Shown here: piece after piece, positions 9,901 through 60,200 of the stretch
Position numbering within the stretch: position 1 is the first letter of the stretch
Layout: every line of letters starts with the position of its first letter
Assembly: GCA_009746045.1 (NCBI GenBank)
Contig: RPFO01000154.1
Coordinates: forward strand, 3,240,763-3,304,762
Direction of reading: 5' to 3'
DNA from: Mesostigma viride
Taxonomy: Eukaryota > Streptophyta > Mesostigmatophyceae > Mesostigmatales > Mesostigmataceae
DNA: 64,000 bases
Program-made: the position numbers and the translations under genes
Notes under the pieces: generated by a model
Database searches by the model: none
The model's input: only the letters and a program-made list of their open reading frames with translations
What the model was told of the DNA's origin: nothing

Positions 9901-10722
9901 AAAAAGCCCCACTTCCGGGTGTACGGTGCAAGTGCCTAGAAAAGATGTTTTGGGACTATGGACCCGGTGGCGCTGCGCCACTTCTTTCGTGAGACCAGAC
10001 AATCTCAATGCTCGCGCGAGGACGTATTTCTAATTTCAACTCCTACATGCCTCCCCTCTTTTACCGGGATTTTCGCGCCGATCCTACGGCTGAGATTCCA
10101 GGATTGGGCGTGGCGTGACCAATTCCAGTCATGACGGCTAACAGCCTGGTGTCATGTCTAAAGGTTATGTTACACCATCAAGGTTAACTTACTGGACGGT
10201 TTTAGGTACCTATCAAGTTCTCCACTTGTCCTCGCCCGGTTAGGGCTAAGTTTTGCAAAAACACAAGTCGTATGTCCTAAACATCTTTTTGCACCTGTTG
10301 CTGGATATTCTCGTCTGCTCCTGTATCTTTTTCTTTTTTGGTTTTATTTTAGCTTGGTTTGCATATTTTATTTGCATCTGCCACCTTTGTTCTGGTTTGC
10401 ATCCGCCACCCACGTTATGCTCCCTATACCTGCCATCGGTGGCTCCTGTCCCCCATCAGGCCGCATACATGGAAGGCTTCCAGCTGAATTTCCATGCTGA
10501 TTCATTGTTATCTCTTTTTGTTTAACCCACCGTGTGCTGTCTATTTTGTTTGTTGCTATCTGCCGCACACGCGTCACCATCCCCCCCGTCAGGCTGCTTA
10601 CATTGAAGGATTCCAGCTGCACGGCCGGGACTTTGCCAAGGTGGCGCGCGTGGTGCAGTCCAAGTCGACCGCACGCGTGGTGTCCTACTACTACAACGTG
10701 CACAAGCCGCAGCTCATCACAG
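3908..10722 (+). CDS. SANT/Myb-like domain nuclear protein with long low-complexity N-terminus
   Basis: Exon A (3908-8441) begins [16 protein letters not shown], with a basic cluster suited to a nuclear localisation signal. About 1,400 codons of Ala/Gly/Pro/acidic low-complexity sequence follow, including an Asp-rich block near residues 280-320 and eight 13-residue tandem repeats. It ends in DWTDKEL at a GAGCTG|GTGCGG donor. The phase-0 intron 8442-10592 leads to exon B (10593-10722), reading [20 protein letters not shown] and then [18 protein letters not shown]. Together these form one SANT repeat with the expected spacing (W...F..G.DF..VA.....K....VV.YYYN). It resembles plant ELM2/SANT-type chromatin proteins, so a role in transcriptional repression is inferred. 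Exon A needs two frame changes (near 7371 and 8163), each at a G run and each fixed by one extra base. The end is uncertain: exon B closes at CAG|GTGGGT, but reading on gives a stop four bases later. No further exon was recognised. Confidence 0.7.
5482..5757 (+). repeat. 39-bp coding tandem repeat (13-aa unit)
   Basis: About seven to eight in-frame copies of [13 protein letters not shown] with small substitutions (V for A, E for A) lie inside exon A of the SANT gene. Unit length is a multiple of three, so copy-number change would keep the frame. Near-identity of the DNA copies points to recent expansion. Confidence 0.9.
9069..9731. repeat. 12-bp minisatellite TTAGGGATGGCA in SANT gene intron
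   Basis: Roughly 55 head-to-tail copies of TTAGGGATGGCA, with a TTAGGGATGGTA variant that recurs in patterned blocks. This suggests multi-unit duplications. It fills part of the 2.15-kb intron 8442-10592. Because 12 is a multiple of three, both strands stay open (LGMALGMA on +, MPSLMPSL on -); neither reading is a real protein. The first half of the intron (8442-8620) is separately made of degenerate TTGTTAGATTG repeats. Confidence 0.97.
10451..10500 (+). repeat. Duplicated copy of SANT exon start (decoy acceptor)
   Basis: A pyrimidine stretch, CAG and 'gccgcatacatggaaggctt' copy the true acceptor and start of exon B ('gctgcttacattgaaggatt' from 10593), 133 bp upstream. The copy would encode AAYMEGFQL and then leaves the SANT frame. 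It keeps a usable AG. Confidence 0.8.
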
Positions 10723-18686: not shown

Positions 18687-21600
18687 TTAAGTCAAGCCCA
18701 CCACCTCCCATATCTTGACCACCATGTCATCCCCTGCAGATGCCAGCATCTTCTTGTCCTGTGCACGCAGCACCAGGCATGGGATCGGGTTTCAGGGGGG
18801 AGGGTGTCATGACAGCATTTTTTTTCTCGCGTGACACAAAAGACGGCGGGGTAGATACAGGATACCCTGAATATGGAGGAGAATAGAACAAGCACAACGC
18901 CTATTTCTGATAGCGGTATTGATTTTATGTGCAGACATTGCATGGTCCACTCACTACTTGGTACAATTGACCAACGTCAGGGTACTGGTCTGATCAATAG
19001 CACACCTCAAATGGCCACCAGATGGACGCACACCAGCAGCAGACTAATGATCATTGAACGGAGCAAAGCTGGCATCAGGATGTGGCTTTGAAAACAACTG
19101 ACGCAATGCTAGCAGACATACTGTTGGGTTCCACCGCACGCAGTTGATGTCGAGCGCATGAGCCTTGTCCTGGCAGAGCAGCATCCTGTACGAGGGAACG
19201 CCCGCATCGGCCTGCTTGCACAATGGGTGTTGCCAGCATCAGTGGTAGGCATAGTGGCGCTTGTATGAGTGCTAGCATAATTGAGTATTGCATGAAGGCA
19301 CGCCCGCATCGGCCTGCGACCCCAAGAAAGCGGTTTGCCACCGCAAGCATGGGCGAGCGTAAGTTTTCTAATGGGTGAGCAGTGAGCAGGAATGGTGCCG
19401 GCTGTCAGCGAAAGCAAAAGTGACCAGGAATGGTGCCGGCTGTCAGCAAAAGCAAAAGTGACCAGGAATGGTGCCGGCTGCCAGCAAAAGCAAGTGCGAG
19501 CAGGAGTGGTGCCGGCTGCCAGCCAAAGCAAAAGCGAGCATAGCTGCAGGCATGAGAGGTGACGAACGTGACCGCGTAAAAGCAGGCATGCGTGCAACAG
19601 AAAATAGGAGCCAGAGTTTGTGAAAGAGCAAGTGCAAAGGTAGATTTTTCCCACCCATGGCATTCCTATAAGCACCTGTATCCATGCCCCCATGCGCCAA
19701 GTGAGCAGGAACGTTGCTGCACGCCGGCACAAGGATACCCACGCACTATGCTCCATTCTACAAAACAGGAAGCAAGGACGATACTTGCAATGCTGTTCTT
19801 CCAAAGTCTTGACTGTCCTTTGAAAGTCTTGGCTGCTCTTGAAAAGTCAGCTCACCCACACGCTACCGAGTCAGGTACTGCCATGCTTGGCTCCATGCGC
19901 ACTAGCAGAGACGGGTCATGCGCGCTTGCCAGCAGACATTTGCCAGCAAAAGTTCGCAGCAGATTCTTGTCAGCAGACGTTTGCCAGCAGACAATCACCA
20001 GCAAATGTTTGACAGCAGACGTTTGCAAGCAAACGTTTTCCAGCACACATTTGCCAGCGGATGGTTGCCAGCACTAGAAGCATTGATGCAATGACAGGAA
20101 CGCTCCCCAGCAACGACCCCATACAAAAGACGAGGAAGCCTGACCCAGCTTGGAATTCAAGGTACGTAGGTCTACTCTCACAGTCAAACCACCAAGGCCC
20201 TTCTCCCACAGACAGCCCCGCACGGGTAGTATGCGTACAACTTGGGCAGCGCAGAAAGTTCGTCCAACTATTACATGGGCACGTCAGCCCAGCGTTCAGG
20301 TACGGTAAGGTACAAGTGATGATGGGGCCAACCCACCAATGCCTCGGGGGCCCTTTCTGACGGCACAGCTCCCTTCTCTCTTCCACCCCTTGTTCCCTCC
20401 AATCTCAAGGACTCACCTCCGCATGCCACCATCCCCTCGACTCTCGGGGCCCACCTCTTTTCTACCTGCCAGACTTTCCTCCATCGCGTTCTTTCTTTGA
20501 ATTTCAACAGACTGACCTCCCCTTTGCCCTCCCAAGCCCCCTTTGCCCTCCCCTGTATTTTGAGGCAATCCCATCCCCTTTCGCACTTCCCTATACCCTG
20601 AGGCATGCGGGCTCACCTCCCCTTCGCCCTCCGGTGTTGTCTCTCCAAACAGCCGCAAGTTGTCGTCAGCCGCGCCCGTGGCAATCAGCCCGTTCAAACT
20701 GCGTGTACCAAACCACCATCGTATGCACCCAACAACACCGCGGTTTTCCAAGCTCGAAGGGTGGGCATATCAGGGGGAGGGTAGAGGGGGAAGCTGAAAA
20801 TGGCAGCTCATCTCTTAACACGGGGGGGCCCATGTATGCAACAGAATACAGTTGGCAGCTAGGCGGCAAGGTGATGACGGCATGGCCAACCAGGATCCCT
20901 GCTTTGCTTTTTCCACAGAAAAAACAAACTAAAGGGAGAGATAAGCAGAAAGCAGGATGAGCTCTTTTCTAACACATCATCATATGGGAAAGGTGTCAAG
21001 GGCGAGGTAAGCAAAGGCATGGGAACGACCAAGGGCACAAAAGGCCAAAAGGCCAACAGGGCAAGGGGGCAAGGGGGCAAGGGGCAAGGGGGCAAGGGGG
21101 CAAGGGGCAAGGGGGCAAGGGGGCAAGGGGGCAAGGGGGCAAGGGGCAAGGGGGCAAGGGGGCAAGGGGCAAGGGGGCAAGGGGGCAAGGGGGCAAGGGG
21201 GCAAGGGGGCAAGGGGGCAAGGGGGCAAGGGGGCAAGGGGGCAAGGGGGCAAGGGGGCAAGGGGGCAAGGGGCAAGGGGGCAAGGGGGCAAGGGGGCAAG
21301 GGGGCAAGGGGGCCAGGGGGCCAGGGGGCCAGGGGGCCAGGGGGCAAGGGGGCCAGGGGGCCAGGGGGCAAGGGGGCAAGGGGGCAAGGGGGCAAGGGGG
21401 CAAGGGGGCAAGGGGGCAAGGGGGCAAGGGGGCAAGGGGGAAGGGGCCAGGGGGCAAGGGGGCAAGGGGGCAAGGGGCAAGGGGGCAAGGGGGCAAGGGG
21501 CAAGGGGGCAAGGGGGCAAGGGGGCAAGGGGGCAAGGGGGCAAGGGGGCAAGGGGGCAAGGGGGCAAGGGGGCAAGGGGGCAAGGGGGCAAGGGGGCAAG

Positions 21601-24600
21601 GGGGCAAGGGGGCAAGGGGGCAAGGGGGCAAGGGGGCAAGGGGGCAAGGGGGCAAGGGGCAAGGCAAGGGGCAAGGCGGCAAGGGGGCAAGGGGCAAGGC
21701 GGCACGGGCCCATGGGGAGCGAGCACCAAGGTAGGCGAGTGATGCCTCGCCTGGACCCGCTCCATGCCTGGCACATGCGGATGGGGTGATTTGGTGATGC
21801 GGCATCCCCCGGCCATGACACGGTCCCACACATATTTGTGGTTCGGGGGCACGAAGGGAAAGCCCGCAAAACACACACAGAGCAACCCTACGACACACAC
21901 AAGGAGCAACCCCACAACAAGCCCAATATGTGTGGACATAGTCGGTATGCAGAAACTATATACATGACTTGATTAGAAAAAAAAAGGATGAATAATCCCA
22001 AGACTACCGAACGCAGGAGATGTCCCAGTCTAAAGAGGTGCGGGGGGGAGAGAGGGCGGGAGGGATAGAAATGGACAAGTCCCCAAGCAATCACCCCCCG
22101 GAGCTGTGGAGGGAATATATCCACATTTGGTCTTCCCAATCTTTGCTTAGGCACGCAGCCACGGATCCCTACAAGAACCCCCAGGCTTAGGCACACGGCC
22201 ATGGACCTTTCCAGATCCTCACAGCAACTTGACTCGTTGCACAGCATGCAACACAAGACTCGAGTTAACCATAATTGAACCCACATGAACGAACCATGCT
22301 GTGAGCCACAACCGCTCGGTGGTAAAGAGTGGTGAATGAACCTCCCTGGTGAATGAAGGTTACACGCCTAAGGCCCACCCCAAAAATTAAAATGGGGGCA
22401 TTACCTGGACCAATGCACCGAGAAGATGGTCCGTGAGTGGTATCCCCCCAGTGAGCAGAGGTTCTTCCTGCACGCACATGGTTGCAGGGCAGACACCACG
22501 TGGCTCCGAACACGTGAGTGGCGTGCCTCGTGCTTGCCCCCCCCCCCCCATATCCCGCGCTTGATTCAAGTATGGCACCATTTCATTTCTAGACGCAAGC
22601 CCTGGTGCCACCATTTAATTTCTAGACTCGAGCCCTGGTGCAAACATTGAGCCCCTAGCTGAAGGAGGCGACAAGCGGCTCTCGCGGGAGGCAACCAAAC
22701 GAGCTTGGTTCCACTTTTCACTCCCGCGAGCCAGTTAACTCTCGTACGTTTCAGAACACACTTCGCCTCGTTTCCAAGGGTTAGGTGGAATCTGCAGCAT
22801 CCTCTGTTGCAAGGCCGGTTCATATCTGGTCAACTCAAGGGTAAATTCGAGGAAGAAGGCATGGTTGGATCCCTTTATTAGGTCTTGCAGTGTCCCGCTC
22901 TCTCATGCAACATATCGCAGCTTTCCAACGCATGCTTGCCCTGCGCCACTCATGCATTTGCAAACACATGCGCCGTACGTTGCTATGCTCACGCACCTGG
23001 CCAGACGAAGAGGATAAAAAAGTCATCTAGAAAACACCACAAGTCTCCTATTTAAGCCCACATGAAAGTTCACACATTACCGGAACAGTAAGCATTTGAA
23101 TCCTACCATAACCCAATGCGCCGGACGTTGCTATGTACCAGGACATAGTACTCGGCATACAGTGAACGGCATCACCATGGATACCCTGAGAGCTATGTCA
23201 AACTACCAGCACTGAAATTCCCAACACACAGTTGCGGGGTTTCAATCCACGAATCCACTGTCTGGAACGTGTGAAAGGGCAGGTATCAAAACAGGCTGCT
23301 TTTGTAAGAATTCACTTGGTATGGACCTTGAGTTGGTACCAATTATTATCAATGACATCATGCATGAACCACAGTCACCAATTTCAATTTTCTTACCAAG
23401 TTCTTCAAAACATGAAGTCCGATCTCACCTCCGCAAAGCCTAGTCTCCTGAACTGGCAAACGTACCACTTTCCCGCCACCTTTTGGGTCCCTGCGGCCGC
23501 GTCCCCGTTCTCCGTCGACGCGTCATCTTCCCATCCCCAGACCATGAGCGTCATGTCGTCGCTGGTGGCACGTATATTTACAGTATTTACAGTTAGTATA
23601 ATCTTTACATGAACAAAGATATCCTCCGCGACAGGGAAACATGCAAAATGTCAGTTCACACGTGGGATGCAAATGTCACCTCACAGTTTCGACATGGCAG
23701 GCATGATGTTAGCGAGCATGGGCCCTGGGGGCGGCGATCCACAACGCCATTTATGCGGCTGAGCAGCCGATCACGGTGATTAGTGCTTGTAGTGGGAATC
23801 ATACGATACGGCTCCTGTGTGTTACGGCTCATATGGTAAGGCTCTTATGTGTTGGGATTCATATGAAAAGGCTCCTCTGTGTTACGGCTCACATGGTAAG
23901 GCTCTTATGTGTTGGGACGCATATGAAAAGGCTCCTATGTGCTACAGCTCACAGGATGATTTGTGACTTGTGGGTGTTACGGCTACGGCCTTGCAATAGC
24001 ATTTGATAGGATAGCCTGCGCAGCCTTAGCATGGTTGAGGGGAAGTGACATACTGTCTATAGGCCCACCTTTTGTACTCTTTGGAGTACAGTGGGCCTAT
24101 AGACAAATACATCCCGGCCATTTGCCTGGGGAAGTCACCTCTCCACACATGCACGTGTGATATCAAGATGCACGTGCGGCATTAACACACGGCTGCTTCA
24201 CCGTGCAGCAGCAATAACACGCGCTGTGCAGCAGCAGCAGCAGCAGCCCAAGCAGCTGGCCAGGATGCAAGCATGATATGTGTGCGAGCTACTACCATGT
24301 GGCATCGCGCGACAGCATTAAACTTGGGAGGTGGGGTTTAGGCTTTAGGCTTTAGGCTTCAGGCTTTAGGGTTTAGGTTTTAGGGTTTAGGGTGTATGGC
24401 AACGGCTGCTGGTGGGAGGGCCCTCCCCATATCCGCAAGGCGGCATTAACAAGTGGCAGTGGCAGGGCCGAGCAGCAACGCTTGGCCTGTTCATTCACAA
24501 GGAGGACTTGAGAGATTTGAACGGCTCACCTGCAGGACACCATCCGGCTGCCGTCGGCGTTCAAGGAGATGCCCCATACCGTGGAGCCATGGCCCCTGAT

Positions 24601-27600
24601 GGGTTCAAGACAAAAGGCACCCACAGGTACCAAGCCGCCGAGAGGCGGCCCAGCACAAGCACGCACAACCAAACCAGGAAGTATGGATCGTTGGAATGGG
24701 AAGAAAGCTAAGCAGGAAGAATGGATCGTTGGAATGGGAAGAAAACTAAGCAGGATGAATGCGAAGCAAACTTAAAGGGAGGGCCCGCTGAACGGAGGCG
24801 AAAATCCCACACCAAATTGGGGATATGGGTTTGAAAGCGATGGATGATGGATGGGATGGAAGGAAAACTAGGATACGATGGCAAAAAAGCAGTGAAATGA
24901 TAGGATAAAACATCCCATTCGAACAGAAAACATCCCACCACACCAGCAATATGACCGTGTGATAAAGGGTGGGATGGGGCAGCCCTCTGTGGAGGGTTGC
25001 CCTAAAGCACAGCCAGAGATTGTAAACATTACAACATGGGGAAATGAAACATGATAAACAAATTAAACAAATTAAACAAATTAAACAAATTAAACAAATT
25101 AAACAAATTAAACAAATGCAGCACCGATGTAAGAATCGATGCACGTGGGGAGGGACCTTTGCGTGCTATTTTTTCTAACGCATGCATGCTAGAGAGAGTG
25201 CCAGTGGGGAATAGTATGCCAGTAGTACGTGCATAGGACGCGTGTTGCCCTTTCAGGCAGAGGCGAATCAGGCTGGCTGTATTGTACTGCGCCCTGCAGC
25301 GCTTGTATGCATAGTAGTATGTGGGAAACACATGGTACGGAAGGCAAAGCTTACTGCGTCGGGCCCTGCAGTGTCTGGATGCACGCCCAGTCCTCCGCGT
25401 CGCGATCCTCCGCCCATACCTGGCAGCCATGCGCAGTGGGAGGCCCACGGGCATGGGAAGGCGAACACACATTTACGAGCTAATGCACGCATGTTTAAAA
25501 CTATGTGATGCGCATGTGTTAGAATCACACAAAGTTATAGTAGTATCTAACCAATGCGCATGGTATTATTGCACACATTTCCGAAATATATTTGGCACTT
25601 ATCTACTGGATTTAGCACTTATCACGCATGCACATATTTATGATCTGATATCATGCGCCTAGCCACCTGAGCAGTACCTAGATCGCGGGAGTTGGTTCAC
25701 TTGCGGGTGTGATGGCATCCCTCAAGCCGGCCACGTCTGCCAGAGGTAGGCCACCCTGCTGTGCCATTACGACGTCAAAGACCATCATGCCGTTTGCCAT
25801 CAATGCGCTCCAATGAGACTGCATAGACCGCATGCCGCTGGATTGATCCTTATGACAGCGCTCGTCATGTGCACGCTCCTATTGAGACCGTGCACCCTAA
25901 TTCGCATGCGTGTGCCAAGGAACCCTCATACGAATGTACCACATGGCACACATGGCACACCAGTGTATAGTAGTATATAACACTTTATTATATGCAGGGG
26001 GGGGGGTTAGTGGCGTTTGCCGCCAATTGTGGCGGTGTAGCACATATTTAGGTGATTTGCGGCAGTGCCACACCATTTGGCAAGGGGGTCCATATGCCAC
26101 AATTTGGTGGTGCTATTCTACCTTGTCGTTTTCATATGCCGCAGAGTGGCCGTGCATAGAGTCGACCCTACTACAGCTGACGCCACGATTGGCTGTGTCA
26201 GAAGACTCTTCAGCCACCCTTCCGCCACGAACCGCCTAGCACGCAGGTGGCGCTCAAGTTGCCGGGGTGGCCATGCTTGGGTGCCGCTGGTGAGCTGAGC
26301 AAGTGCTGGCCAGTGGGCCGTGTCGTGCAGTGAGCAGTGAGCTGTGGGCACTGGGCACTGAGCTGAGCAGGGGCAGCATTACGCTCCGGGCAGCATCACG
26401 CTCCGGGCAGCATCACGCTCCGGGCAGCATTACGCTCTGGTATATTGGTCCGGTAGCGCCGCGCCGTGCCGCGCCTGTCTACTTGTAGTTGCTGTGAGGG
26501 GGCATCACGTCGCTGCACCAAGGAGAGTTGGACGAAAGCCCCTTGGTTGTCCCGCCACACATGGCCATGCCGGGACCACATTTTATTGGCTAAAAGCCAC
26601 ACGGTGGCCGAGTCAGCAGTTGTTCCGGCAGTTCAAAACGCCACACGTAGCCGAGTGCGAAAACCTGAAAGGAAACCCTGCCTGACCTACCTATTGATTG
26701 TTTATTATGTTCTGAAAGTGGAAACCCTATGTTCTGAAAGTGTGGTGGCAGTATAACAAAGATGACGACATTCCATCTCAATGAATGCACTTATTGAAGG
26801 TGCTATAACTCGCACACAGGTCAAACATTAGTAACCCTAGTACTGCCTTTACCGCCCACCTCAATGCTGTCACCGTAGCCGCCCTTCATTATTCATCGAC
26901 CCACCTTAATGCTGCCATCACAGCTGCCCTCCCTTACACCTTGACCCCCCTTCATGCTGTCGTCGTAGCTGCCCTCCCTTACACCTTGACCCACCTTAAT
27001 GCTGTCGTCGTAGCTGCATGACAGCAGCATGCGGAGTGACGGGTGCCACGTCACCATCTTGACGTCCTGCGAGTGGCCGCTGAGCACCGACACGCACTCA
27101 AACTCGGTCCCGTGAGGCTCCCAGATCCACACGCTGCGGTCGCGGCTGCAAGTGGCCAGCATGCGGCCGCAGGGGCTCCAGGCAACAGACTTGACCTCGC
27201 ACTCGTGGCCCTGCAAGTAGCGCGCAACCGGGTTGGAATATTAATAGATATTATTAGGGTGGGTTATTCTGATTTGGCACGCCGCAAAGGTGAAAACCAT
27301 TTGCGTTCAGTGCCGGTCCGCGGTTATGTATCAATGCGTTGACGACTTGACCTCGCACTCGTGGCCCTGCAGGTTGCACCGCAGTAACAGAGAGCCATGT
27401 TGTGCGGGTGGCCTGTCAATCCATAGGCTGACAACTTGACACCGCAAGCGCGGCCCTGCGCACGTCAGAACCAACTTAGAATATTAATATTGATTGATAA
27501 TGCGGTTCGCCTATCAATCACATTGATAATCACATCGATAGGGTGGGTTGCCTATCAATCAATAGGGCGATAATATTAACGCGCGCACGTGGAAGTAGTG

Positions 27601-35300: not shown

Positions 35301-38300
35301 GCCTTGACATAATCCGGGGCATCGGTGAGACTTTCCACCCCCTTGTGTCCCTGCGTCCACAGGTCTGGGTGCTGGACAGCGTCCCTTCGCGGATGCAGGT
35401 GAGGAGGGGGGCATGAGTCCGTTTCATGCGGCAGATTAGATTGATTCATGTGAGATTGGTTTTCATGTTGATATTAGATTGGAATTCTTATTTGTTTCCT
35501 AACTAGTTAGAGCTTTTTCATTTAAATTGGATAGAGTTATCTTCCAGTAGCTGTACTGTAACTTAGTTTCGCACTTATTGGTAAATTATGCCGCATGGCA
35601 GTGATAGAGGCAGAGAGGGCCTAGTTTCCGCCAGTTTTGTCCCGCCCGACTTTGCTGTTGAAGGATTTTGTAAGAGAACGTGTTATGGAGAATGCTCGTT
35701 CCTAAGGTGGGCCATGCCAAGAATCAGCCCAGTGGCACAAATGCTGCCTACTGAGCCTAGCTGAATAGGGATTAGGCAGCAAGTTATGTTCTCGTGTGGC
35801 CATGGCAGGGCCGGTTGTAGAGTGCAGACACGCAGACACACACATCCACGGAGATACAGATAACAAATGCACAGATAACATATGTACCAATAATAGATAC
35901 ACCGATGCACAGATAACAGATGCACAGATAACAGATGCACAGATAACAGATGCACAGATAACAGATGCACAGATAACAGATGCACAAATAATAGATACAC
36001 GGATACGCAGATACACAGATAACCGATAAGGAAATAAAAGATGCACAAATAATAGATACACGGATACGCAGATACACAGATAACCGATAAGGAAATAACA
36101 GATGCACAAATAATAGATACACGGATACGCAGACACACAGATAACCGATAAGGAAATAACAGATGCACAAATAATAGATACACGGATACGCAGATACACA
36201 GATAACCGATAAGGAAATAACAGATGCACAAATAATAGATACACGGATACGCAGATACACAGATAACCGATAAGGAAATAAAAGATGCACAAATAATAGA
36301 TACACGGATACGCAGATACACAGATAACCGATAAGGAAATAACAGATGCACAAATAATAGATACACGGATACGCAGATACACAGATAACCGATAAGGAAA
36401 TAAAAGATGCACAAATAATAGATACACGGATACGCAGATACACAGATAACCGATAAGGAAATAAAAGATGCACAAATAATAGATGCACGGGTACGCAGAC
36501 ACACAGATAACAGAAGCACAGACACGCCCATCAACCAATACACAGGCACAGAGATACGCAGAGTATTGCCTCCCTACACAGGCACGGCGTTAACTATTGA
36601 ATGACAGTGTCCGAAAAACTTGCATCGTACATCGCATACCAATAAGCTGCGTGTCATTCTAGGTTCCTTTACTATTTTGTTGTGAATATTGGGAGGTCCC
36701 CACCCGTTATGCAAATCTGTTCGTGTATGCCTTCGGCCTTTCTCTTCAGCAGGAGGGCCACACTGGGTCACCTAACTGCCTGAGTTATGTCTGAATAATC
36801 ATCGCTTTCTTATGTCACCAGAAAGGTGCTTGCCCCTCCAGGGGAAGGACCACACGGGCGTCATTGAAAAGTGCTTGAGTGATAATTAAATAATCACTTT
36901 GTTTCGCACGTCACTCAAGATGTTCTTGTCCCTCGAGCCTTGCCATTCAGGGAGAGGACCACACGGGCGTCACCAAGGTGCTTGAGTTTCTCCAAGAGCT
37001 GCCATCCCACATGAAGTCGCGCCAGTAAGTCCCTTCTTTTGGGCACACTTTTCAGCTGTATTGGTCCCGCCAGTATAGGCAATTTTACTGGAGCATGGTC
37101 TCCTCAATATCAAATTTATGTTACAATTCAATTCAATGGTCTCCTCTCGATCTGCTTGTGCCAGTAAGGGCCCTCTCTTGAGCCCATGATTTGCCTGTAT
37201 GTGGTCCCGCCAGTGAGCGTCCCTTGTGTAACGCACGATCTCACGGGTATGTGGCTGCGCTAGTCAGGCCCTTCTCTTGAGCAATTTTTTCTTTCTGTAT
37301 CAGGTAGCTTTTTGATCAGGTAGCCAATATTGCTATGCCATGACATCCTTATACTGTATATCAGGCCGTCACGCGTGTCACGCTACCTAAATATCACTTG
37401 ATTATGGATCCAGGCATACAGCATAGGTGCCTGTCCGTTAGGGCTGTCAGCAACTATGCTTCTTTTTTATTTATGCCAGCTGGTGATGGTTTGCGGTGTA
37501 CTCTTCTCACCATGCTTGGTATGCCCTAGTTGTTATTGAAGACCTTGGTGCTGGCAGCCTAGTAGCCTGGCTGTTGTGCACTCTGCATGGCCACTGTGTT
37601 GTACATCCCGCACCAGGTTCAGTGGAGCTGAGGATTATCTTGGCCTGCCAAAACGCCCTAGATATAAATAGATAGATTGATACTACTAGTAGCTAGTGTA
37701 AAAAGGAGTATAGATATAGTAGTAAACAGTTAAAGGTCCCAAGCGATCTTGCACAGTCTGGTTTGTATGTCAGATTTGGATGGCCCTAACGGGCTTTGTT
37801 ATCTTACTTATTTTAATGGTGGCCCCGATGTCATGCATACACGCATGCTTTGCAATGCCTGCTGATCAGTTATATATGTTTCCACTAAGGGCGTTTTTAC
37901 ATGGGGATTGTTAATTAAGAGCCAGCTATGTTTGGACAGCTAGCTGTGGGCATCCGTATTTGGCAGCTAGTTCTGTGTCGGGTTCGCTGTTCTCTCCAGC
38001 GGCTGCACAACGAGCATGGCCAGCACCCCGTTGCACTGTCTATCCCGATATTGTCGCAACGCTGGTCTCTGCGCCCACACCGTGAACCGTCTGCCACATC
38101 GCAACATAACACATTGCACGGCCATACACACGCCATCACAACGTATTGCACGTCGTAACAAGAACGCCCACATTTAGGCAAGGCATCTGCAGGAGCGTCA
38201 CCGTCATGTGTCCATAGCAGCCTCTCCCACTGCTGAAATGCTCAATACTAATTGCGATCATGATAGGGGTGGAATGATAGGGGTAGAATGATGGGGGTGG

Positions 38301-41300
38301 AATGATGGGGGTGGAATGATGGGGGTGGAATGATGGGGGTGGAATGATAGGGGTAGAATGATGGGGGTAGAATGATGGGGGTGGAATGATGGGGGTGGAA
38401 TGATGGGGGTAGAATGATGGGGGTGGAATGATGGGGGTGGAATGATGGGGGTGGAATGATGGGGGTGGAATGATAGGGGTGGAATGATGGGGGTGGAATG
38501 ATGGGGTGGAATGATAGGGGTGGAATGATGGGGGTGGAGTGATGGGGGTGGAATGAAGGGGGTGGAATGATAGGGGTGGAATGGTAGGGGTGGAATGATG
38601 GGGGTGGAATGATGGGGGTGGAATGATAGGGGTGGAATGATGGGGGTGGAATGATAGGGGTGGAATGGTAGGGGTGGAATGATGGGGGTGGAATGATGGG
38701 GGTGGAATGATGGGGGTGGAATGATGGGGGTGGAATGATGGGGGTGGAATGATAGGGGTGGAATGATGGGGGTGGAATGATAGGGGTAGAATGATGGGGG
38801 TGGAATGATGGGGGTGGAATGATGGGGGTGGAATGATAGGGGTGGAATGATGGGGGTGGAATGATGGGGGTGGAATGATGGGGGTGGAATGATAGGGGTA
38901 GAATGATGGGGGTGGAGTGATAGGGGTGGAATGATGGGGGTGGAATGATAGGGGTGGAATGATAGGGGTGGAATGATAGGGGTGGAATGATGGGGGTGGA
39001 ATGATAGGGGTGGAATGATAGGGGTCGAATGATAGGGGTGGAATGATAGGGGTGGAATGATGGGGGTGGAATGATGGGGGTGGAATGATGGGGGTGGAAT
39101 GATGGGGGTGGAATGATAGGGGTGGAGTGATAGGGGTGGAATGATAGGGGTAGAATGATAGGGGTGGAATGATGGGGGTGGAATGATGGGGGTGGAATGA
39201 TAGGGGTGGAATGATGGGGGTGGAATGATAGGGGTGGAATGATAGGGGTGGAATGATGGGGGTGGAATGATAGGGGTGGAATGATAGGGGTAGAATGATA
39301 GGGGTGGAATGATAGGGGTGGAATGATGGGGGTGGAATGATGGGGGTGGAATGATGGGGGTGGAATGATGGGGGTGGAATGATAGGGGTGGAATGATAGG
39401 GGTAGAATGATGGGGGTGGAATGATGGGGGTGGAATGATGGGGGTGGAATGATGGGGGTGGAATGATAGGGGTGGAATGGTAGGGGTGGAATGATAGGGG
39501 TAGAATGATAGGGGTGGAATGATGGGGGTGGAATGATAGGGTAGAATGATGGGGGTGGAATGATTGGGGTGGAATGATAGGGGTGGAATGATGATGCTGG
39601 TCGCCACCACCGCCGCAGGCAGCTGCAGGAGCGCGCATCCCCGTGTCTGGCATGTGAGAATGCGCAGTAAGCACGGTTACGATACGCGACATATGTGCGC
39701 AGTAATTAGAACCCTGGTTGCCGCACCCTCAACAAGAACGCAGGCAGGTGCAGGAGAGCGCGGTCATGAGTGCGTCTGCCTGCATCACCGCATCTGCCTG
39801 CGTGAGTGCTAGAATGCGCAGTAGTACTATCAGTTTTTTGTCGCCACACCCGCACGGTAACCACACCCGCCACCACAGGTAGCTGCAGGAGCTCATCAGC
39901 TGCATTTTCATGATGCCCTGGATAGGACCAATGGAAACGCGCTATATAAATGCTGGTCGCCATAGTAATCCACATCCACATAATGCAGCAGGCAGCTACA
40001 GGAGCGCGTGGCCAAGTGCCTATGGCCGTACCATGAATGATATGTTTTTTATTTGGATTGTTTTCGCCACCACCGCAGGCAGCTGCAGGAGCGCGCGGCC
40101 AAGCGGGGCTTCAGCGCGGAGCTGGGCGCGTGGCTCAGCATGAACCTGGTGCAGGACCCTGACAGGGAGGGGTGGTACGCCTGGTCCCTCAACCGCAGCG
40201 GTGCGATGGAGATGTTCCAGTCGTACAGGTATAGTGTACATTCTAGATCCATATTGTACTTATTATCATTGTAGCAAGTCATCAATCCATGAAGCAGCGG
40301 CGGGACGAAGGTGTTCCAGTTGTACAGGAACCCTCGTTTAGACAGGTTGGGTCTTGAACAACGACGTAGGCGTGTCCGCAGGTGCACTGATTAAGACCGG
40401 CTGGGTATTGGTTAAGAAAGCCCACAAGACAGGATCTTCGTTCTTCCGCATGTTTTGGGTACAGATTAAGAAGGACGGCGGGGTATGTCAATGCCGCGGC
40501 ATGATGGGCATGCTTCCAAGACTTCTCCAAGAAGCAATGACCATGACTTTTCCAAGAAGCCATCGGCGTGGATATTGGCGCTGTGAATAATGTTGTTGTA
40601 AAGATATACCAGTCGCTCTGGTTTATTGGCTGTTGTAGAGGGGATTGTGCAATCAACCCCATCGCGCCTGTGGTTAGGCTCTGTTAGAAGGGATCTGGCA
40701 CTCTGTGTGTGTGCGTGTGTGCGCGCGCAAAATGCCTCCGGGGCTTGGCGGGGAAGGGGCCAGGGTGGGGAGGGAAAGGGGGACATGGGATAAAGGAGAG
40801 CGTGGGCAGGCAAATGTAAGGTCCTGCAGGGGGCTGTGGAAGTATGACATGTACTTGTGGTGAGTTGTGTTTGTGCTTGCCCGTCTCTGCATACGCGTCT
40901 ATCATAGTTGCCTCTATGCGTATCAGAGAAGACTTTGTTGGATGGATGTCATCAGGAAGGAATTGACCAGCGCCTGGGAGAAGCAACGGCTTTCTGGGCA
41001 CTGTGCTTGTGGTTATTATCACGTCCGGTGACTGTGCCGAGCTTCTACAGAGGAAAACCTTGTTTGCAGCACCTGCTTGCAGTACCTGTTAATAGATCCT
41101 CTGTGCCTGCTTCGGTGTGTGGTGACTAAATGTCCCGAACAACGGCACCAGGGGGGAATGCCATGCCCCTGGTTGTCAGCCTTGCAATAGACAGGTTGTC
41201 ATGCATATAGTCCTATCGATTGTCATCATGCTACTATGTACATAACCCATACTACAGTATCGAGTCATCCATGGATATCAAGTCCTAGCGGACTCCCTTG

Positions 41301-43890: not shown

Positions 43891-44021
43891 CTTCTTATAT
43901 ATTAAATAGAAGTATATAATTACTCTTCTTATATATATCATTCTTCTTTTCGGGGTTTTCCTTCTGTTGCATGCCCACCTCACCTCCGTAATTTATCATT
44001 CTCAATGAATATATATCATCC

Positions 44022-44240
44022 TAGATCCCTCCCAGGCCTGCCTGGTGGGCCGGCAGCGATGCATTGCTGCGTGTCGTAGGTTTGTGATGTAGTTAGTTGT
44101 ACCTTGTGCAGCTGGCGTGATCCTTGGATGTCCGTGTCAGATTACTATTAATTTCTTCAGGGTTCTTCTTCTTTTCGGGGTTTTCCTTATGTTGCATGCC
44201 AATCTCACCTCCGTAATTTATCATTCTCAATGAATATATA
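44022..44240 (+). mobile_element. Family A non-LTR element, 3' UTR copy
   Basis: Same UTR from 'tagatccctcccaggcctgc' to 'cattctcaatgaatatatat', diverged in the middle ('ttcttcttcttttcgggg'). It is joined head to tail to the partial copy at 43930-44021. Confidence 0.8.
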
Positions 44241-45047
44241 TTAAAATTAAATTAAATTATAACATGCCTCCGTTGGGAGATCATGTAGCACATATTCCTT
44301 GATGGGTGGTGGAGTGGAGAGAGCCGCGTAATCGGACTATCCTAACGCGAATCTATCTAGTCTAGAAAAATCCTAACTACCCTACTCATCAAAACGCCTA
44401 GGACCTAGATAGCTTATACCATCCATTCCATCCCATGTTCCCCTCCCATGCACTGGGGACTTATGCTCACGTGACGCAGTCACGTGTCTATTAATTAATT
44501 AATTAATTAATTAATTAATTAATTAATTAATCAAAACGCCTCCTCCTCTTGGGGGGAGGTGGCTTGCCCACAGCGGGGTCGGGCGTGTGAGCCTTGACAA
44601 TCTTCTGCCACCGCGTCTTGTTCTGCATGGCAGTCCACAGAAGGGAGAGAGAGTGGATGCGGTATTCAAACTGGGCTGGGACCAGTAGGTCATCCAGCAA
44701 CATCTGGACGTAGTTCGTGACATGTTTCCCTACCCTTTTCGGGGAATGCCCTTGGGGCCAGGCCAGGTCAGAATGTGCCGCCCTGGCTGGCCAAGCCGCT
44801 GGGGGCCTGCCAGACCAAGGGCGGTGTCGACCTGGCTGGTGCGAGCAAGGTGTCCTACAAATGCTATCCTACGCTGTCTAATCTCGTCCGAAATACGAGG
44901 CATGCCCTTATACAAAGACTCTAATGACGGGCGCTTGGAAAACCCTACGTTCAGGACCTGTCGGAGAATCCTGGTTACCGTGCCGTTGATCGAGCCTGGC
45001 TGCCAGTGTGGTTGTGAGTGACGCCTAGCTCGGCGCCATACGTGAAT
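44241..45047 (-). mobile_element. Family B non-LTR retrotransposon, 5'-truncated copy 2
   Basis: The minus strand encodes TVTRILRQVLNVGFSKRPS, SLYKGMPRISDEIRQRR and 'IAFVGHLARTSQVDTALG', then a second frame with LLDDLLVPAQFEYRIHS. This is the terminal 'R.lL....P.+S.eIr.RRl.F.GH..R' block of many LINE polymerases. The 3' end is A/T-rich and preceded by a 40-bp TTAA repeat (44491-44530). Stops and at least one frameshift show it is dead. Confidence 0.8.
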
Positions 45048-47093: not shown

Positions 47094-47165
47094 AACTGAC
47101 AAAGGCGATGACCCGGTGGGGCCTTACATTGCCGTAAGAGGCAATGTCGCGCTCAGCCACAGCAG
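47088..47165 (-). mobile_element. Endonuclease-domain fragment fused to the RT fragment (chimeric junction)
   Basis: Immediately upstream of the RT blocks, the minus strand reads AVAERDIASYGNVRPHRVIA, which is the C-terminal endonuclease segment of the same family. It cannot precede the RT in an intact element. The two pieces meet at 'actcctcaa' near 47090, a sequence also present at 45480 in the true endonuclease region, so microhomology-mediated joining is likely. Confidence 0.75.
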
Positions 47166-47389
47166 CTGCAGCGCTTTATTGTAATATGGATCCTCGATCC
47201 GTTCGAGCTTGTGCTGGTTTCAATCAGCTGCAATTACCTCATCTATTAACTAATTAATTAATTCATTCATTTAAAGCACGCTAGCTCAGTAGTCCCTGGC
47301 AGCTAGGGCTGCGGGCCCGGCGGCGCCATGCCTGGCCAGGTGGGATCACGTACTGTGTTCACCACCAATCTTAATTAATTGGTCACACG

Positions 47390-47945: not shown

Positions 47946-48314
47946 ATATATTCATTGAGAATGAGAGATTACGGAGGTGAGATAGGCATGCAACATAAGG
48001 AAAAACCCGATAACTGGGAGAATAACCCTGAAGAAATTAATAGTAATCTGACACAGACATCCAAGGATCACGCCAGCGGCACAAGGTACAACTAACTATA
48101 CATCACAAAACTACACGCAGCAACAGCGCTGCCGGCCCACCATGCAGGCCTGGAAGGGATCTAGACCGCATGGGTCGCGACAAAGTCGGCCCGGGTGCGG
48201 CGGAATAACACATCAGCCACGGTGCGAGTGAGGGCGAGTGACAGGCGCTGCCGCCAATACGAGGACCACGTGCGGGCCGACCACGGGGCGGTCTGACCCT
48301 CGAGGTCGAGGCGG
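47946..48314 (-). mobile_element. Family A non-LTR element, 5'-truncated copy
   Basis: From the 3' terminus 'attctcaatgaatatatat' (47946) through the UTR and the last codons (SYWRQRLSLALTRTVADVLF, then RRTRADFVATHAV), truncated inside the endonuclease domain at 'gaggtcgaggcg' (48314). Both flanks contain 'gcatatata', a plausible target-site duplication. Confidence 0.8.
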
Positions 48315-54231: not shown

Positions 54232-57200
54232 TCAATTACCATGGGGCGCGGCATGCTGGCCTCCGCCTCTTGCTGGGGCGGCGCTGGCTGGCCTCCGCGT
54301 CACCCCCCTGGGCAATGAGCCCAGGGTCAAGGCGGCGGAGGAGGACGAAGTCGTGCCTTGGCTTGGGTAGCGGTGGGTGGGCGCGCGCGCGATAGAGGCC
54401 ACCACTTCATTGCGACGCGCCTGCGAACGATTCGCCGCCGCAAGACAGCAGTTTTCAGTTTGCAACATGGATACCGAACCGGAGCAATGTGGGATTGTGC
54501 CGCGTTGGCCATGAGACCGGAATGATTTGCAATTGTAAACCATGACTGCCGGAGCCGAGCGATACAATCATGTGATATATATTAGCAAAACGTAACAATT
54601 TGTAACGATTGACAATATCAATAAAGCATATTGATTATACAGGTGAGCGACATGCATTTGTACACGGTTTGCGTTGATCGCCTCTTGCAGTGATTGCCTA
54701 AGTCCAATCACTTTAGGGTCCACGCACTTTTCAGGGGCTGCCTAGCAAAGCGGTGGTAAACACACAGCTTGATTTCTGAGGGTGAACTGCTAGCCATGCC
54801 AGTGATGTAGCGACTTGTAGACATGCCCTAAGTTGCAATGTCGCCTCACAGCCAGGCGACATGATCACCGTCAACCGTCCGATCACCAGCTAACGAGAAC
54901 GATGCATATCTGAAGTCATCATTATTTACTAACACGACGGGTATCACATGGTGCAGCACTTTCGACCTCCTGCATCTTCAATCTCCTGCAAAAAAAAGCA
55001 ACTCGCACGAAGCCTGAAACCAAACCACGCTAATTGCCTCCTTGAACAGGGTGGATGGGTGCCACAATTAGCAGAAAGCACGCTGCAACGCGCAAGGATC
55101 AGCACAGGCTTTTTTTCGGCGACGATGGTGTGCCTCTGATACAGCGGGCAAACTAGGTGGAGAGGGGAAGAAGGTCACACTGTACTGCTATCATACCGGC
55201 GGTTTCTAGGGAAGCGTTGTGTGGTGATACCGCAAACAAGGAGCGGGGGGGCACCTGGGCAAGGCTGTATCATGGGCAATAGGGGGGCATGCACAAATAG
55301 TGGTTCTCACAGAAATATGATGGATAAATTTTCTGAGCCATCTGCTCATCATATAGTAATGTTGCAGCGGGCTCAAAAGGGGCCGATCTGCCACCTGACT
55401 AGCGTAGCTCTACCGTACGTCACCTACACCATGTGAGGTGCTTGTGTTACATAGGACTGGACTAGAAGGGGACCGGTGTTGCGCCGGTACTAGCGCCTAC
55501 TGTCAACCGTGCCCGCCCTTTTGAGGGGGGCGCTCCGCCTTGAGAGCATGTGCTTTGTTATTCATTTCACACGTACTTAGAGTGGTGTGGTGAACGTAGG
55601 GAAGCCTTTTGCAGCTCCAACCCACCCACCCTCGCTGCTGTTGGGGACAAGATTGGACCAAGGGGGCATGTGCTGGGCCCCAGCATGGTGAACTGGCCTA
55701 ACTTGACAATGACTTGTACAATGATTTTGAGGGTGTGGCTAGGCTCAACTGTTACAGCCTGCACACACTTATTGTAATAAACTTGTTTCTCTGGTAGGAA
55801 GGCACTCCAATGGACCTTAGCTACAGCACCTGTAGTGAAATAGAAGTAAGGGGGCACAGGAAAATGCTGAGCAAAGCCAGCACGTTATATCCATACATGG
55901 TCAACTATATCTAACCTCCCCCAGATGGCACCAACCTCCCTGCACATCTTGTACACCCCTTGCCGCCTCAATAACTAATCCAGTCTCTTGCCATTGATGA
56001 TTATGCCCTCCTTTCTTTGCGCCTACCTTTTGCTAAGCCCGAGCTGCAACGCAACTTCCCAGCTCTCCACCCCTAAAAACCTCGACCCTAACCCCACACT
56101 GCCCCACACTGCCCCCTGATAACAGCGGCATTCGCCCGAACGCCCCCCTCCCCGTTCCCCCCCATCCCCCCCAATGGCTAAAACTCCCTATCCCCAACGT
56201 CCCTCATCCCCATAGTTGAAGTAGAATGCAACCGTGAAAATAAAGATGTAGCGTGGCCCTGAGCACGCCAGCGCGCCACCACGCGCACGCGGCGCCACCC
56301 ACCAGCAGCTCCAGCTTCTGCTGGCGCCGCACCCCGTGTTGCAGCAGCCGGTCCTCGATGGGCACTCCACGCTTCTGACAGCCGCAGGATGCCAGAACAA
56401 AAAATACACGTTCACGGTTGAAATCACATGAAAACGATGCGAAACGATTAGAGGCCACACAAGACCTTATGAAGCCATAATAAACCGAGGCCACACAAGA
56501 CCTTACGAAGCCATAATAATAAACAGAGGCCACACAAGACCTTACGAAGGCATGATAAGGAAAAGAGCCACACAAGACCCTAAGAAGCCATTATAAGAAA
56601 ACCATCCGTCGGAACCACAAGGTGCCCTAGAGAGAATATGAGACCGTCTTCTCGTTCTCGGAACAATGACCCAAGAACAAGCTGTCACACGTCACACATC
56701 ACACAAGCAGGCGCGCCACCATGCACGACACCGGGATGACCTCGGGATGACAGAGCGATGCGCCCATGTTCTTTGTCTATTCAGAATAGATACTGAAAAG
56801 TGCTATTGACTGACAGAAACAACCACACACACCATCATGCACGAGACGGGGTTGATGGCGGGCCGAAACCGCGGTGTGCCAGTGCCCTTTGTCTATTCAC
56901 ACCAATTATGTACTACGAATATGTATTATACTACTATCATTTTATGACATTATTAATTGTCAGATACAGCCACAAGCACCATCATGCGCGAGACAGGGTC
57001 GATGGCGGGGCGGCAAACACACACCGTCCAACGAACAAACAGACAAACAATAGACAACGAGGACACAGAATAATGAATATGAAGAAAACTCAGAATAAGG
57101 AGGAGGAGGAGGAGGAGGAGGAGGAGGAGGAGGAGGAGGAGGAGGAGGAGGAGGAGGAGGAGGAGGAGGAGGAGGAGGAGGAGGAGGAGGAGGAGGAGGA

Positions 57201-60200
57201 GGAGGAGGAGGAGGAGGAGGAGGAGGAGGAGGAGGAGGAGGAGGCAAGGAAACGCACCATCGTACGCGAGACAGGGTTGATGGCGGGCCGAAACAGCGGC
57301 GCGCCCGTTTCCTTATCCCGCGTCTCCGCCACTGCGCGCGCCATCGCCCGCACGCGCCGCCGTCCCTCATACACGCCAGCGCACCCAAACAATCGGGCGA
57401 CCGCATCGTCTGGTACCGTGAGCACAGGCCCGTCCGCGCCGTCCCGGTGGGCTGGCACGGCCCCGTCCACCGGGTCGTTGCTGCCGCGGCTACTGCGCAG
57501 TGCCGCGGGGGGGTCCCGTGCCACGGCCTGGCCATCCAGCATGGCCACGGGTTTCGGATGATGATGATGACCAGCATTCTTGTTCTTGTGATGGTTGTTG
57601 GCATTGTGACCGGACTTTTTCAGGTCGGCTAGCGGACTGCCTCCATCGCTATCAGATCTCGGCTCATCCTCGGGGTGGAGACCCGGCTCCTCATCGTCGG
57701 AATAGCTCTGGCTGCTGTCACTGTCCTCACTGCTACCCTCGGTATACCTCCCCTCTGCTTCTTCCGCGTCTCCTCGTCCCTCGGCCCCTTCCCCCCTCCC
57801 GCGCCGCGCCACCACCTCGTCACCGCCATCGCTGCCATCATTATCGTCGTCGGACTGCGAGTGACGCCGCGATGCACCACCACCCTTCTGGTCCGGATGG
57901 TCCGCCCTCGGCCCATCCACCCGCTTCGTCCCCCGCACCCCTCCCGTGCCGGACTGTTTCTGAGGCATTCGCGGCTGTTGCTGTGGGTGCTGCTGCTTCT
58001 GCCCTTGCGACTGCTTCTGTTTCTGCTGCTGCCGCCACGCCACCCCCCGGGCCATGGCCGCACGCTCCCTCTCTGCCACGCGGGCCATCGCAGCGATCTG
58101 CTGGCGACGCTCCTCCCCCGATTGGAGCAGGCGGTCCTCAACCCGCTTCTGCGTGGGGTGAGGGTCAAGACAAGGGCAACACAGGCGTGAGAGTACCTTA
58201 GCAGGTGGTCCTCAACCCTCTTCAGCGTGGAGTGAGGGTAATGAGAAGGGCAACAAGGGCTTGAGAGTACCTTAGCAGGTGGTCCTCAACCCTCTTCTGC
58301 GAGGGGTGAGGGTCAAGACAAGGGCAACACATGCGCGTGAGTCTCTTAGCAGGTGGTCCCCAACCCGCTTCTGCATGGGGTGAGGGTTGCACGTGACATG
58401 ACGAATTCATGACCGACCATGACATAGATAGCTCAGGGACAAATCACATTTATATGCAGGGCATCAGGGTTGTGATCAGATCATGGATGGACTCATCAAC
58501 GAACCGGCCGTGGCATGGCCGCCGCCATCTCCGCCGACACCGGGTCGATGCTGGGCCCTGGCTTGACCGCACGCAGCTCCCTGGCCGCTACCTCCTCCCT
58601 CATGGCCGCGATGTGCTGCTGCCGCTGCTCCTCCCAGTGGAGCCAGAGCTCGGGCCCGCGGTGCATGGCTTGGGAGACCGGGTTGATGACGGGCCTGGGG
58701 GTAAAATTAATGAAGACAGGTAAAATAAATGAAGTTGATTGAAGGGGGTGAGGGTTTGATGAGGGGAAGCATGGGGGACACGGGTAATGGGAGCAGAAGC
58801 AAGGAGGGAGGGAAGGGAGCAGAAGCAAGGAGGGAGGGAAATAGTTTGCATTTATAAGTCGAATTGGATTGGATTGGATTGGTATTTGGTCCCTATGTGT
58901 GGCTTGTTGGAATGGGTTGATGACAGGCCCGGACCGCCCGATGCTTTTTTACGGGTAAGTTTCGGAATGTGTGTGTGTGTGGTGGTGTGGTGGGGGGGGG
59001 GGGGGGGGGCATGGGTGGGTGCATGGGTGGGGGAAGGAGTGTATGTGTGTCTGTGTGTCTGTGTGTGTGTAATTTGTGGGGTTAAAAAACAAGCCGAAAG
59101 AGGGTTCGGGCTGACCAGAACGCGGGGGGGGCCAAGTGTGGGAGCCAGGAAATCGTCGTGGGTAAGAACAAGAACGGGCAGGGCAAAACCATTCCAGTGA
59201 AACAATCTACTAGTTTAAGGAAAGGGGGCCAGCAATGCGGCAAGAACAGCCACACACCTTCCTTGTCGAATAGCTACTCAATTAACGAGCCAAGAAACCA
59301 ACAAACAAACCAATCAAACCCTCCCTCCCTCTCACCCACCCACCCACCCACCCACCCACCCACCCACCCACCCACCCACCCACCCACCCACCCACCGACT
59401 CACCCACCCACCGACCCACCCACCCACCGACTCACCCACCCACCCACCCACCCACCCACCCACCCACCGACTCACCCACCCACCCACCCACCCACCCACC
59501 CACCCACCCACCCACCCACCCGCCCACCCACCCACCCACCCATCCAGCCACCCAGCCACCCAGCCACCCACCCAGCCACCCACCCACCCACCCAGCCACC
59601 CAGCCACCCAGCCACCCACCCACCCACCCACCCAGCCACCCAGCCACCCACCCACCCACCCACCCACCCACCCAGCCACGCAGCCACCCAGCCACCCACC
59701 CACCCACCCACCCACCCACCCACCCACCCACCCACCCACCCACCCACCCACCCACCCACCCACCCACCCACCCACATAACCACCCACCCACCCACCCACC
59801 CACCCACCCAGCCACCCACCCGGCCACCCAGCCACCCAGCCACCCAGCCACCCAGCCACCCAGCCACCCACCCACCCACCCACCCACCCACCCACCCAGC
59901 CACCCACCCAGCCACCCAGCCACCCAGCCACCCAGCCACCCAGCCACCCAGCCACCCAGCCACCCAGCCACCCAGCCACCCAGCCACCCAGCCACCCAGC
60001 CACCCAGCCACCCAGCCACGCAGCCACCCAGCCACCCACCCACCCACCCACCCACCCACCCACCCACCCACCCACCCACATAACCACCCACCCACCCACC
60101 CACCCACCCACCCACCCACCCACCCACCCACCCACCCACCCACCCACCCACCCGCCCACCCACCCACCCACCCACTAGTTAATTTACCATGTGTTCATTA

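Follow-up and report, generated by a model that had tools for sequence, protein, structure and literature searches.

Direct copies of exon edges, splice sites included, in adjoining introns of Mesostigma viride

The stretch of DNA analyzed here, referred to below as the window, comprises 64,000 nucleotides of contig RPFO01000154.1 of Mesostigma viride (positions 3,240,763 to 3,304,762, forward strand; assembly GCA_009746045.1, 439.9 Mb in 2243 contigs) and holds four genes in which exon edges, together with their splice sites, recur as copies in the neighboring introns. CIAO1 lies on the minus strand with 10 exons, and its protein matches Ciao1 structures (E=7e-99). A plus-strand hydrolase of 9 exons, which we take to be related to ABHD11, matches Abhydrolase_6 in Pfam (E=3.5e-17); its introns at 33468 and 41539 start with GC in place of GT (gcaagt and gcacgt). 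The third gene, on the minus strand with 4 modeled exons, encodes a coiled-coil protein for which the Pfam scan matched no family; its exon 3 is backed by an open reading frame and GT-AG borders, and the protein carries a P-x-INPVS motif twice, once where exon 2 begins and once where exon 3 ends (window positions 58694 and 57258), as well as an EDRLL stretch at the starts of both exon 3 and exon 4. Only the end portion of the fourth gene, with 2 modeled exons, falls within the window, and we call it SANT type on the basis of a weak Myb/SANT match (E=1e-4) under the Pfam cut-off. Our own gene finder, in its last round, recovered just 11 of 42 hand-made edges in the window and predicted long minus-strand chains there, and hand-built models were therefore used to define the edges of all four genes.

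For each edge, a word of 25 exon and 10 intron bases was compared, without gaps, with as many as 800 bases of the intron that it borders, and a score of 13 or more was taken as a clear copy. Twenty clear copies were found at 11 of the 44 exon edges tested, each in the adjacent intron; when the SANT exon start is set aside, 19 copies at 10 of 43 edges remain at the same threshold. Direct copies occurred at 4/22 donor and 7/23 acceptor edges, and at these edges there were no inverted copies and none across the exon. Apart from the simple arrays listed, a local BLAST of the window left 30 pairs of repeats, 20 of which touch exon-edge regions of the four genes. The window was picked because it shows the pattern. 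The genuine exons and the copies, in which "shift" denotes the distance from the real edge and TRF denotes Tandem Repeats Finder, are as follows.

10593..10722, plus strand: real exon B of the SANT-type gene (hand model)
10450..10486, plus strand: copy of the SANT exon B start with a CAG acceptor, 133 bases upstream (86% over 37 bases; score 24)
26995..27210, minus strand: real exon 3 of CIAO1 (hand model)
27344..27377, minus strand: copy of the CIAO1 exon 3 start, shift 156 (94% over 34 bases; score 28.8)
27430..27465 (ends approximate), minus strand: older copy of the CIAO1 exon 3 start, shift 245 (score 15)
26855..27017, minus strand: 45-bp array over the CIAO1 exon 3 end and donor, the real end plus 3 copies (TRF 3.6 copies; scores 28.6, 21.2, and 19.2)
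20507..20542 (ends approximate), minus strand: copy of the CIAO1 exon 8 end, shift 100 (score 16.6)
19294..19317, minus strand: copy of the CIAO1 exon 9 start (real edge 19211), shift 102 (92% over 24 bases; score 20.2)
36951..37024, plus strand: real exon 6 of the ABHD11-like gene (hand model)
36829..36880, plus strand: copy of the ABHD11-like exon 6 start, acceptor included, shift 109 (81% over 52 bases; score 21.2)
37160..37214, plus strand: weak, mostly intronic repeat of the ABHD11-like exon 6 donor region at 37021-37074 (76%, gapped; not recovered by the ungapped search)
40079..40228, plus strand: real exon 7 of the ABHD11-like gene (hand model)
39607..39636, plus strand: copy of the ABHD11-like exon 7 start, shift 460 (97% over 30 bases; score 25.8)
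39739..39766, plus strand: copy of the ABHD11-like exon 7 start, shift 335 (89% over 28 bases; score 21.4)
39867..39892, plus strand: copy of the ABHD11-like exon 7 start, shift 200 (88% over 26 bases; score 18.6)
39985..40016, plus strand: copy of the ABHD11-like exon 7 start, shift 87 (93% over 29 bases; score 24.6)
40294..40328, plus strand: copy of the ABHD11-like exon 7 end, shift 99 (83% over 35 bases; score 16.2)
57258..58148, minus strand: real exon 3 of the coiled-coil gene (open reading frame, GT-AG borders)
58126..58387, minus strand: 74-bp array over the coiled-coil exon 3 start, comprising the real acceptor and, upstream of it, 3 copies (TRF 3.5 copies; scores 26.4, 26.4, and 24.4)
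56976..57019, minus strand: copy of the coiled-coil exon 3 end and donor, shift 278 (86% over 44 bases; score 22.4)
56827..56889, minus strand: copy of the coiled-coil exon 3 end and donor, shift 425 (83% over 63 bases; score 20)
56703..56783, minus strand: weak third copy of the coiled-coil exon 3 end (72% to the second copy; below the score threshold)
58903..58938 (ends approximate), minus strand: copy of the coiled-coil exon 2 start, shift 234 (score 14.6)

A sequence-only reading of the window had proposed that exon edges and their splice sites are copied into neighboring introns, and this is the case, although "about 25" copies amounts to 20 strong ones plus some weak ones, and some entries of its list were weak or not recovered. 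All of the copies that it assigned to the start of CIAO1 exon 3 (two) and exon 9 (one), to ABHD11-like exon 7 (four at the start and one at the end), to the starts of coiled-coil exons 2 and 3 (one and three), and to the start of SANT exon B (one) were found at threshold. The end of CIAO1 exon 3 has three copies rather than the two reported, and the copy of the CIAO1 exon 8 end, absent from that list, emerged from the edge word search. One of two copies claimed for the ABHD11-like exon 6 start is strong and the other is weak (score 11); similarly, two of three stand at the end of coiled-coil exon 3, the third being the weak one listed above. A copy of the CIAO1 exon 4 end could not be recovered, nor, in the ungapped search, could any of four at the end of ABHD11-like exon 6, where the single weak gapped repeat is all that was seen. 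The statement that copies never lie inside exons follows in part from the way in which exons are defined.

An independent sample was provided by 25 stretches of 10 kb around WD40 places, chosen regardless of repeats (loci numbered L###), in which exons were predicted ab initio with a small gene finder trained on the window (148 exons at a score of 5 or more) and edge words were again searched within 800 bases of their own intron. Edge copies recur in these other stretches of the genome, are direct, and are confined to the intron adjoining the edge: at a score of 13 or more, direct copies were present at 34/137 donor and 12/142 acceptor edges, and inverted copies were present at 1/137 and 0/142, respectively. 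Donor words had no counterpart in the upstream intron (0/138 direct and 0/138 inverted), and acceptor words had almost none in the downstream intron (0/138 direct and 1/138 inverted). At a score of 14 or more, 29/137 donors and 12/142 acceptors retained copies. In the introns of other genes, a score of 13 was reached by 0.2% of donor and 0.04% of acceptor words and a score of 14 by 0.04% of each; words from exon interiors reached 13 in 1/88 and 0/94 cases and 14 in 0/88 and 0/94. The recurrence is not due to chance. Words from intron interiors gave copies at a score of 14 in 45/816 and 52/816 cases, and 55 direct and 12 inverted copies were counted among 816 intron words each. No copies were found at the very few start codon (0/3) and stop codon (0/7) edges available.

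Homology was checked for four of the 25 loci. The products of L029 and L009, after removal of predicted extra pieces, align to TBL1XR1 (E=8e-147) and beta'-COP (E=0), respectively, and the uncut product of L020 aligns to Pf20 (E=1e-128); all three alignments continue straight through the copy-bearing junctions, showing that the protein is continuous across them in these three genes. The fourth, L032, aligns to WDR1/AIP1 (E=3e-95), and its raw prediction holds two short extra pieces, one apparently from an edge copy. Small extra exons that the gene finder apparently built from edge copies are seen in L029 around position 5926 and in L032 around position 1133, and such exons probably give rise to annotation errors in this genome.

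We compared junctions with intron points by counting duplicated blocks that span a given point (short, 16 to 60 bases; long, 60 bases or more; identity of 0.85 or more). Since decay at an exon edge affects the copy alone, an excess of up to twofold is expected there. Short donor copies are about 12 times as frequent as comparable intron duplications, beyond the effect of twofold slower decay: short blocks spanned 16/119 donors and 1.05% of intron points (ratio of the two, 12.6; bootstrap over loci, 6.7 to 21.6; P=5e-9 versus twice the intron rate), with 11 of 25 loci contributing, and the ratio was 15.8 against points matched for complexity and GC. The excess persisted when the comparison was with double the rate found for the first 150 intron bases, itself 1.8% (P=6e-6). 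At an identity of 0.9 or more, 11/119 donors were still spanned (P=3e-6 versus twice the intron rate and P=1e-4 versus twice the proximal rate), and at 0.95 or more the count was 4/119, a small number, versus 0.3 to 0.4% of intron points. Acceptors gave 6/119 against 1.3% (ratio, 3.8; 0.7 to 8.0; P=0.09 versus twice the intron rate), and the acceptor excess is not significant beyond the twofold expectation. Overall, short blocks spanned about 1 to 2% of intron points and 0/110 points 45 bases inside exons. Long blocks were not commoner at donors (3/119) than at intron points (2.8 to 3.5%). In the window, selected for the pattern, acceptors look stronger than donors (4/21 versus 2/21 spanned at an identity of 0.85), and 1/13 exon points 45 bases inside lay in a long block (identity, 0.78). 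The idea of general intron growth by tandem duplication, advanced in the sequence-only reading, therefore survives in part: the pattern recurs beyond the window, lengthens introns, and is enriched at donors as short copies, but true tandem arrays are not the enriched form, and most copies lie outside contiguous arrays of near-identical units of the minisatellite kind. The distances from edges to their farthest detected copies sum to about 10.8 kb, compared with a total of 159.5 kb for 142 introns, or roughly 7%, a rough figure in that the two counts cover slightly different introns and older or more distant copies are uncounted. The median length of these 142 introns is 914 bases; a mean of 1142 bp is given for M. 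viride NIES-296 in an excerpt of PMC6947507.

In the stretch alignments, the copies are mostly about 14 to 55 bases long and consist of the exon end and the first intron bases. Among the best copies, GT is kept in 24/34 donors and AG in 8/12 acceptors; shifts range from 22 to 526 bases at donors (median, 83) and from 71 to 576 at acceptors (median, 149). A few young arrays are present (L020, 71 bp; L022, 66 bp; L029, 40 bp). Identity along the donor diagonal is maximal at the border and has reached baseline by +10 on the intron side and about -40 on the exon side; the ungapped alignment ends on the intron side within -2 to +10 in 24/34 donor hits, with exon-side ends between -8 and -54. A positional profile was obtained by sliding 24-base windows along 80 donors and 82 acceptors and seeking a copy, for donors, in the next 500 intron bases. 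The proportion with a copy was 0 to 2.5% for donor windows starting at least 52 bases inside the exon, 27.5% at -20, 12 to 16% for intron starts at 4 to 48, up to 24% at +52 to +60, which is where first copies tend to lie, and 3 to 11% from +80. Thus, the zone just past the donor is elevated along with the edge itself. At acceptors, the edge stood at 8.6%, the adjacent intron at 5 to 8% with values of up to 15.5% some 40 to 50 bases in, and the intron from 80 bases onward at 4 to 7%.

Decay was examined over all copies, with arrays capped at four and the window included. Mismatches at codon positions 1, 2, and 3 numbered 28/335, 32/352, and 46/347 in donor copies (8.4, 9.1, and 13.3%) and 14/178, 19/174, and 21/177 in acceptor copies (7.9, 10.9, and 11.9%), a modest third-position excess (odds ratio of 1.6 with P=0.03 for donors and of 1.3 with P=0.37 for acceptors) of the kind expected if the copy drifts freely and change in the exon is mostly silent. 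Restricted to the best copy per edge, the counts were 21/213, 20/221, and 28/217 at donors and 6/111, 7/105, and 15/109 at acceptors. GT was intact in 45/64 donor and AG in 23/30 acceptor copies, retention about equal to that of neighboring bases, and spacings showed no frame preference (18, 22, and 16 for remainders 0, 1, and 2 modulo 3). Many of the decoy sites envisaged earlier look usable, judged by scores that exceed the lower quartile of real sites in 34/64 donor and 18/30 acceptor copies. We see no clear sign that the splice signals of the copies are under purifying selection or are selected against. With mismatches at all codon positions, GT and AG kept like their neighbors, and no frame preference, the copies mostly look like neutral debris.

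On balance, we think it probable that local direct duplication is frequent and that the copies are, for the most part, its neutral by-products, with a mutational hot spot near 5' splice sites in addition. A local block of DNA spanning an exon-intron border would be duplicated directly, every copy bringing its own splice site; the spliceosome would use the site nearest the exon body, so that the protein would be unchanged and the intron would grow, the duplication being tolerated provided that the outermost splice sites remain intact. Duplications internal to exons would be purged by selection, leaving the border as the part of an exon open to copying, and since the copy would decay while the real edge is selectively held, border copies would stay recognizable about twice as long as copies of intron within intron. 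In addition, short duplications arise at and just past 5' splice sites at several times the rate seen deep in introns, probably because of a mutational hot spot there; polymerase slippage or staggered-break fill-in close to the border would be examples. What we infer here is the kind of lesion, the neutrality of the copies, and the use of the outermost sites. Slippage or staggered-break fill-in fits better than templated insertion or transposition because the copies are direct and no insert family was seen in the sequence compared. Templated-insertion end joining yields copies in both orientations, and it was rejected on the basis of 1 inverted versus 46 direct copies in 279 own-intron tests. 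Transposon or introner insertion was likewise rejected: among 49 inserts between real edge and copy, one 17-base match was the only sign of a family, and 1/49 matched other loci in the 314 kb compared (the 25 stretches and the window).

Several observations weigh against this account. The stretch exons are predictions of our own gene finder, in stretches selected via WD40 hits. In isolated copies (shift of 60 or more, block of 60 or less; anchored gapped alignment), gapped homology runs into the intron past +8 in just 7/20 donor and 2/11 acceptor cases; that it mostly stops argues against the duplication of whole large units, as the mismatch rates would leave recognizable intron flanks, and decayed whole large tandem units were accordingly rejected as a source. 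High values are not restricted to the border: over the first 60 bases of the intron they stand at 12 to 24%, and the edge exceeds the proximal intron only about twofold. Junctions carry young tandem arrays no more often than intron interiors do (with the window included, arrays of period 20 or more cross 9/142 donors and 2/142 acceptors, versus 7.9% of intron points), so that plain array formation leaves the donor excess unexplained. G-richness after donors is equal with and without copies (0.354 and 0.356), and a G-rich flank was rejected as the cause. Finally, the best acceptor copies mismatch at 15/109 third versus 13/216 other positions (odds ratio, 2.5; P=0.02), which exceeds the prediction from drift of the copy alone.

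A stronger claim is put forward tentatively: 5' splice sites may themselves be mutational hot spots at which a transcription- or splicing-coupled process repeatedly copies the exon end and donor into the intron. Introns would then lengthen from the 5' border outward, and fossil copies would record such events at roughly one donor in every four or five. As a rival to local duplication, a process dedicated to 5' splice sites in this way, for instance through staggered nicks at R-loop borders that are repaired with filler, is somewhat more doubtful still. Block ends that cluster at the border, identity at baseline by +10, and donors affected far more than acceptors all speak for it, but similar short, spaced direct duplications also occur within introns (57 in 124 kb at an identity of 0.9 or more), the search window of -25 to +10 and faster decay on the intron side both favor clustering at the border, and the first 60 intron bases are elevated too. 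It is unlikely that no hot spot exists and that ordinary tandem arrays, arising everywhere, merely leave remains that are preserved longer beside exons. The similar rates at which arrays cross donors and intron points, the nonsignificant acceptor excess, and the predicted twofold step from proximal intron to donor edge (27.5% versus 12 to 16%) are what this explanation has in its favor; one-sided decay, however, gives at most about a twofold excess, too weak for a donor ratio of 6.7 to 21.6 that is still visible at an identity of 0.9, and the proximal intron itself would still have to be a hot region.

It is very improbable that the copies are functional, whether as alternative splice sites (donors or acceptors), as pieces of mutually exclusive exons, or as decoys maintained by selection. 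More than half of the copies have scores like those of real splice sites, all four exonic mismatches in the SANT copy lie, by eye, on third codon positions, and the best acceptor copies share such an excess; against this, the overall excess is modest and explicable by silent change in the real exon alone, GT and AG are kept no better than adjacent bases, and spacing shows no bias toward multiples of three. Mutually exclusive or alternative exons were rejected as a class, given that mismatches fall at all codon positions without frame bias and coding constraint is not seen. More improbable again is an artefact of assembly or gene models: the ab initio finder did build apparently false exons, some from copies (L009, L029, and L032), but the copies differ from real edges in sequence and flanks, hand-built and homology-checked genes show the pattern as well, and the assembly was built on 113x long reads and optical maps, according to an excerpt of PMC6947507.

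Local direct duplication of this type agrees with what is found in M. viride in that the copies are direct, lie in the adjacent intron only, and are spaced 22 to 576 bases from the edge, with unchanged coding sequence in the three proteins aligned through junctions. That repeats lengthen introns is already known; no description of junction-centered, single-edge copies was found in the openly licensed PMC papers searched, which is no proof of absence elsewhere. The comparisons that follow draw on excerpts of the papers cited. Daphnia neointrons also contain short direct repeats, present internally in 55/90 new versus 100/617 established introns, ascribed to staggered double-strand breaks and proposed to lengthen introns (PMC4202315); there, however, exon-end repeats are 4 to 12 bp long and lie at the opposite end of the new intron, whereas the M. 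viride blocks are mostly about 14 to 55 bases, lie near the same edge, and involve no repeat common to both intron ends (0/142 introns at a score of 9 versus 0.6% of mismatched pairs), for which reason intron gain by staggered-break insertion of the Daphnia type was rejected. The introns of Caenorhabditis F-box genes are elongated by local repeats of about 50 bp, a similar lengthening, but the excerpt reports repeats in the intron rather than exon-edge copies with splice sites (PMC8665587). In intron gain via tandem genomic duplication of AGGT-bearing exon sequence, splice signals likewise travel with the duplication and the protein can remain unchanged (PMC3443670, PMC2891723, and PMC4974935); that process makes a new intron inside an exon, whereas in M. 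viride an existing intron grows at its edge. Rogers and Bendich (2025) described direct repeats of 4 to 30 bp that are similarly close to intron borders but pair the 5' with the 3' border (PMC11782384), pairs of which M. viride introns show no excess. Introners also change intron content at large scale, as reported mainly in fast-evolving lineages such as green algae (PMC9860276), but, unlike introners, the inserts compared here share no family.

The pattern suggests a route by which introns can grow while the protein is unchanged. Intron lengthening is usually attributed to transposons; exon edges held by selection beside decaying copies would constitute a second, datable record of intron growth, from which the rates, ages, and breakpoints of such events would be directly readable. 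Site choice could also be tested on the real splice sites and their decoy copies, which together form a natural paired set, and the pattern carries a warning that gene finders may take edge copies for small exons.

Minisatellites are very abundant in the window, with 62 tandem-repeat rows; examples are a 14-bp unit present 95 times at 38260-39593 and a 4-bp unit present 214 times at 59318-60175. A CIAO1 intron holds a degenerate TTTAGGG-like array at 24337-24391 (7 bp x 7.9) that resembles the plant-type telomere repeat. An Rfam scan of the window returned nothing at the gathering threshold. At about 45300-47200, a minus-strand reading frame contains a reverse-transcriptase-like stretch, GTQQGDPLGP, and probably represents an element of the long interspersed nuclear element (LINE) type; similar pieces appear in the gene predictions of L013, L015, and L027. 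Close by, a local direct repeat of ~225 bases with 89% identity occupies 43662-44241, and similar sequence seems, by eye, to recur reversed near 45030-45300 and 47950-48230.

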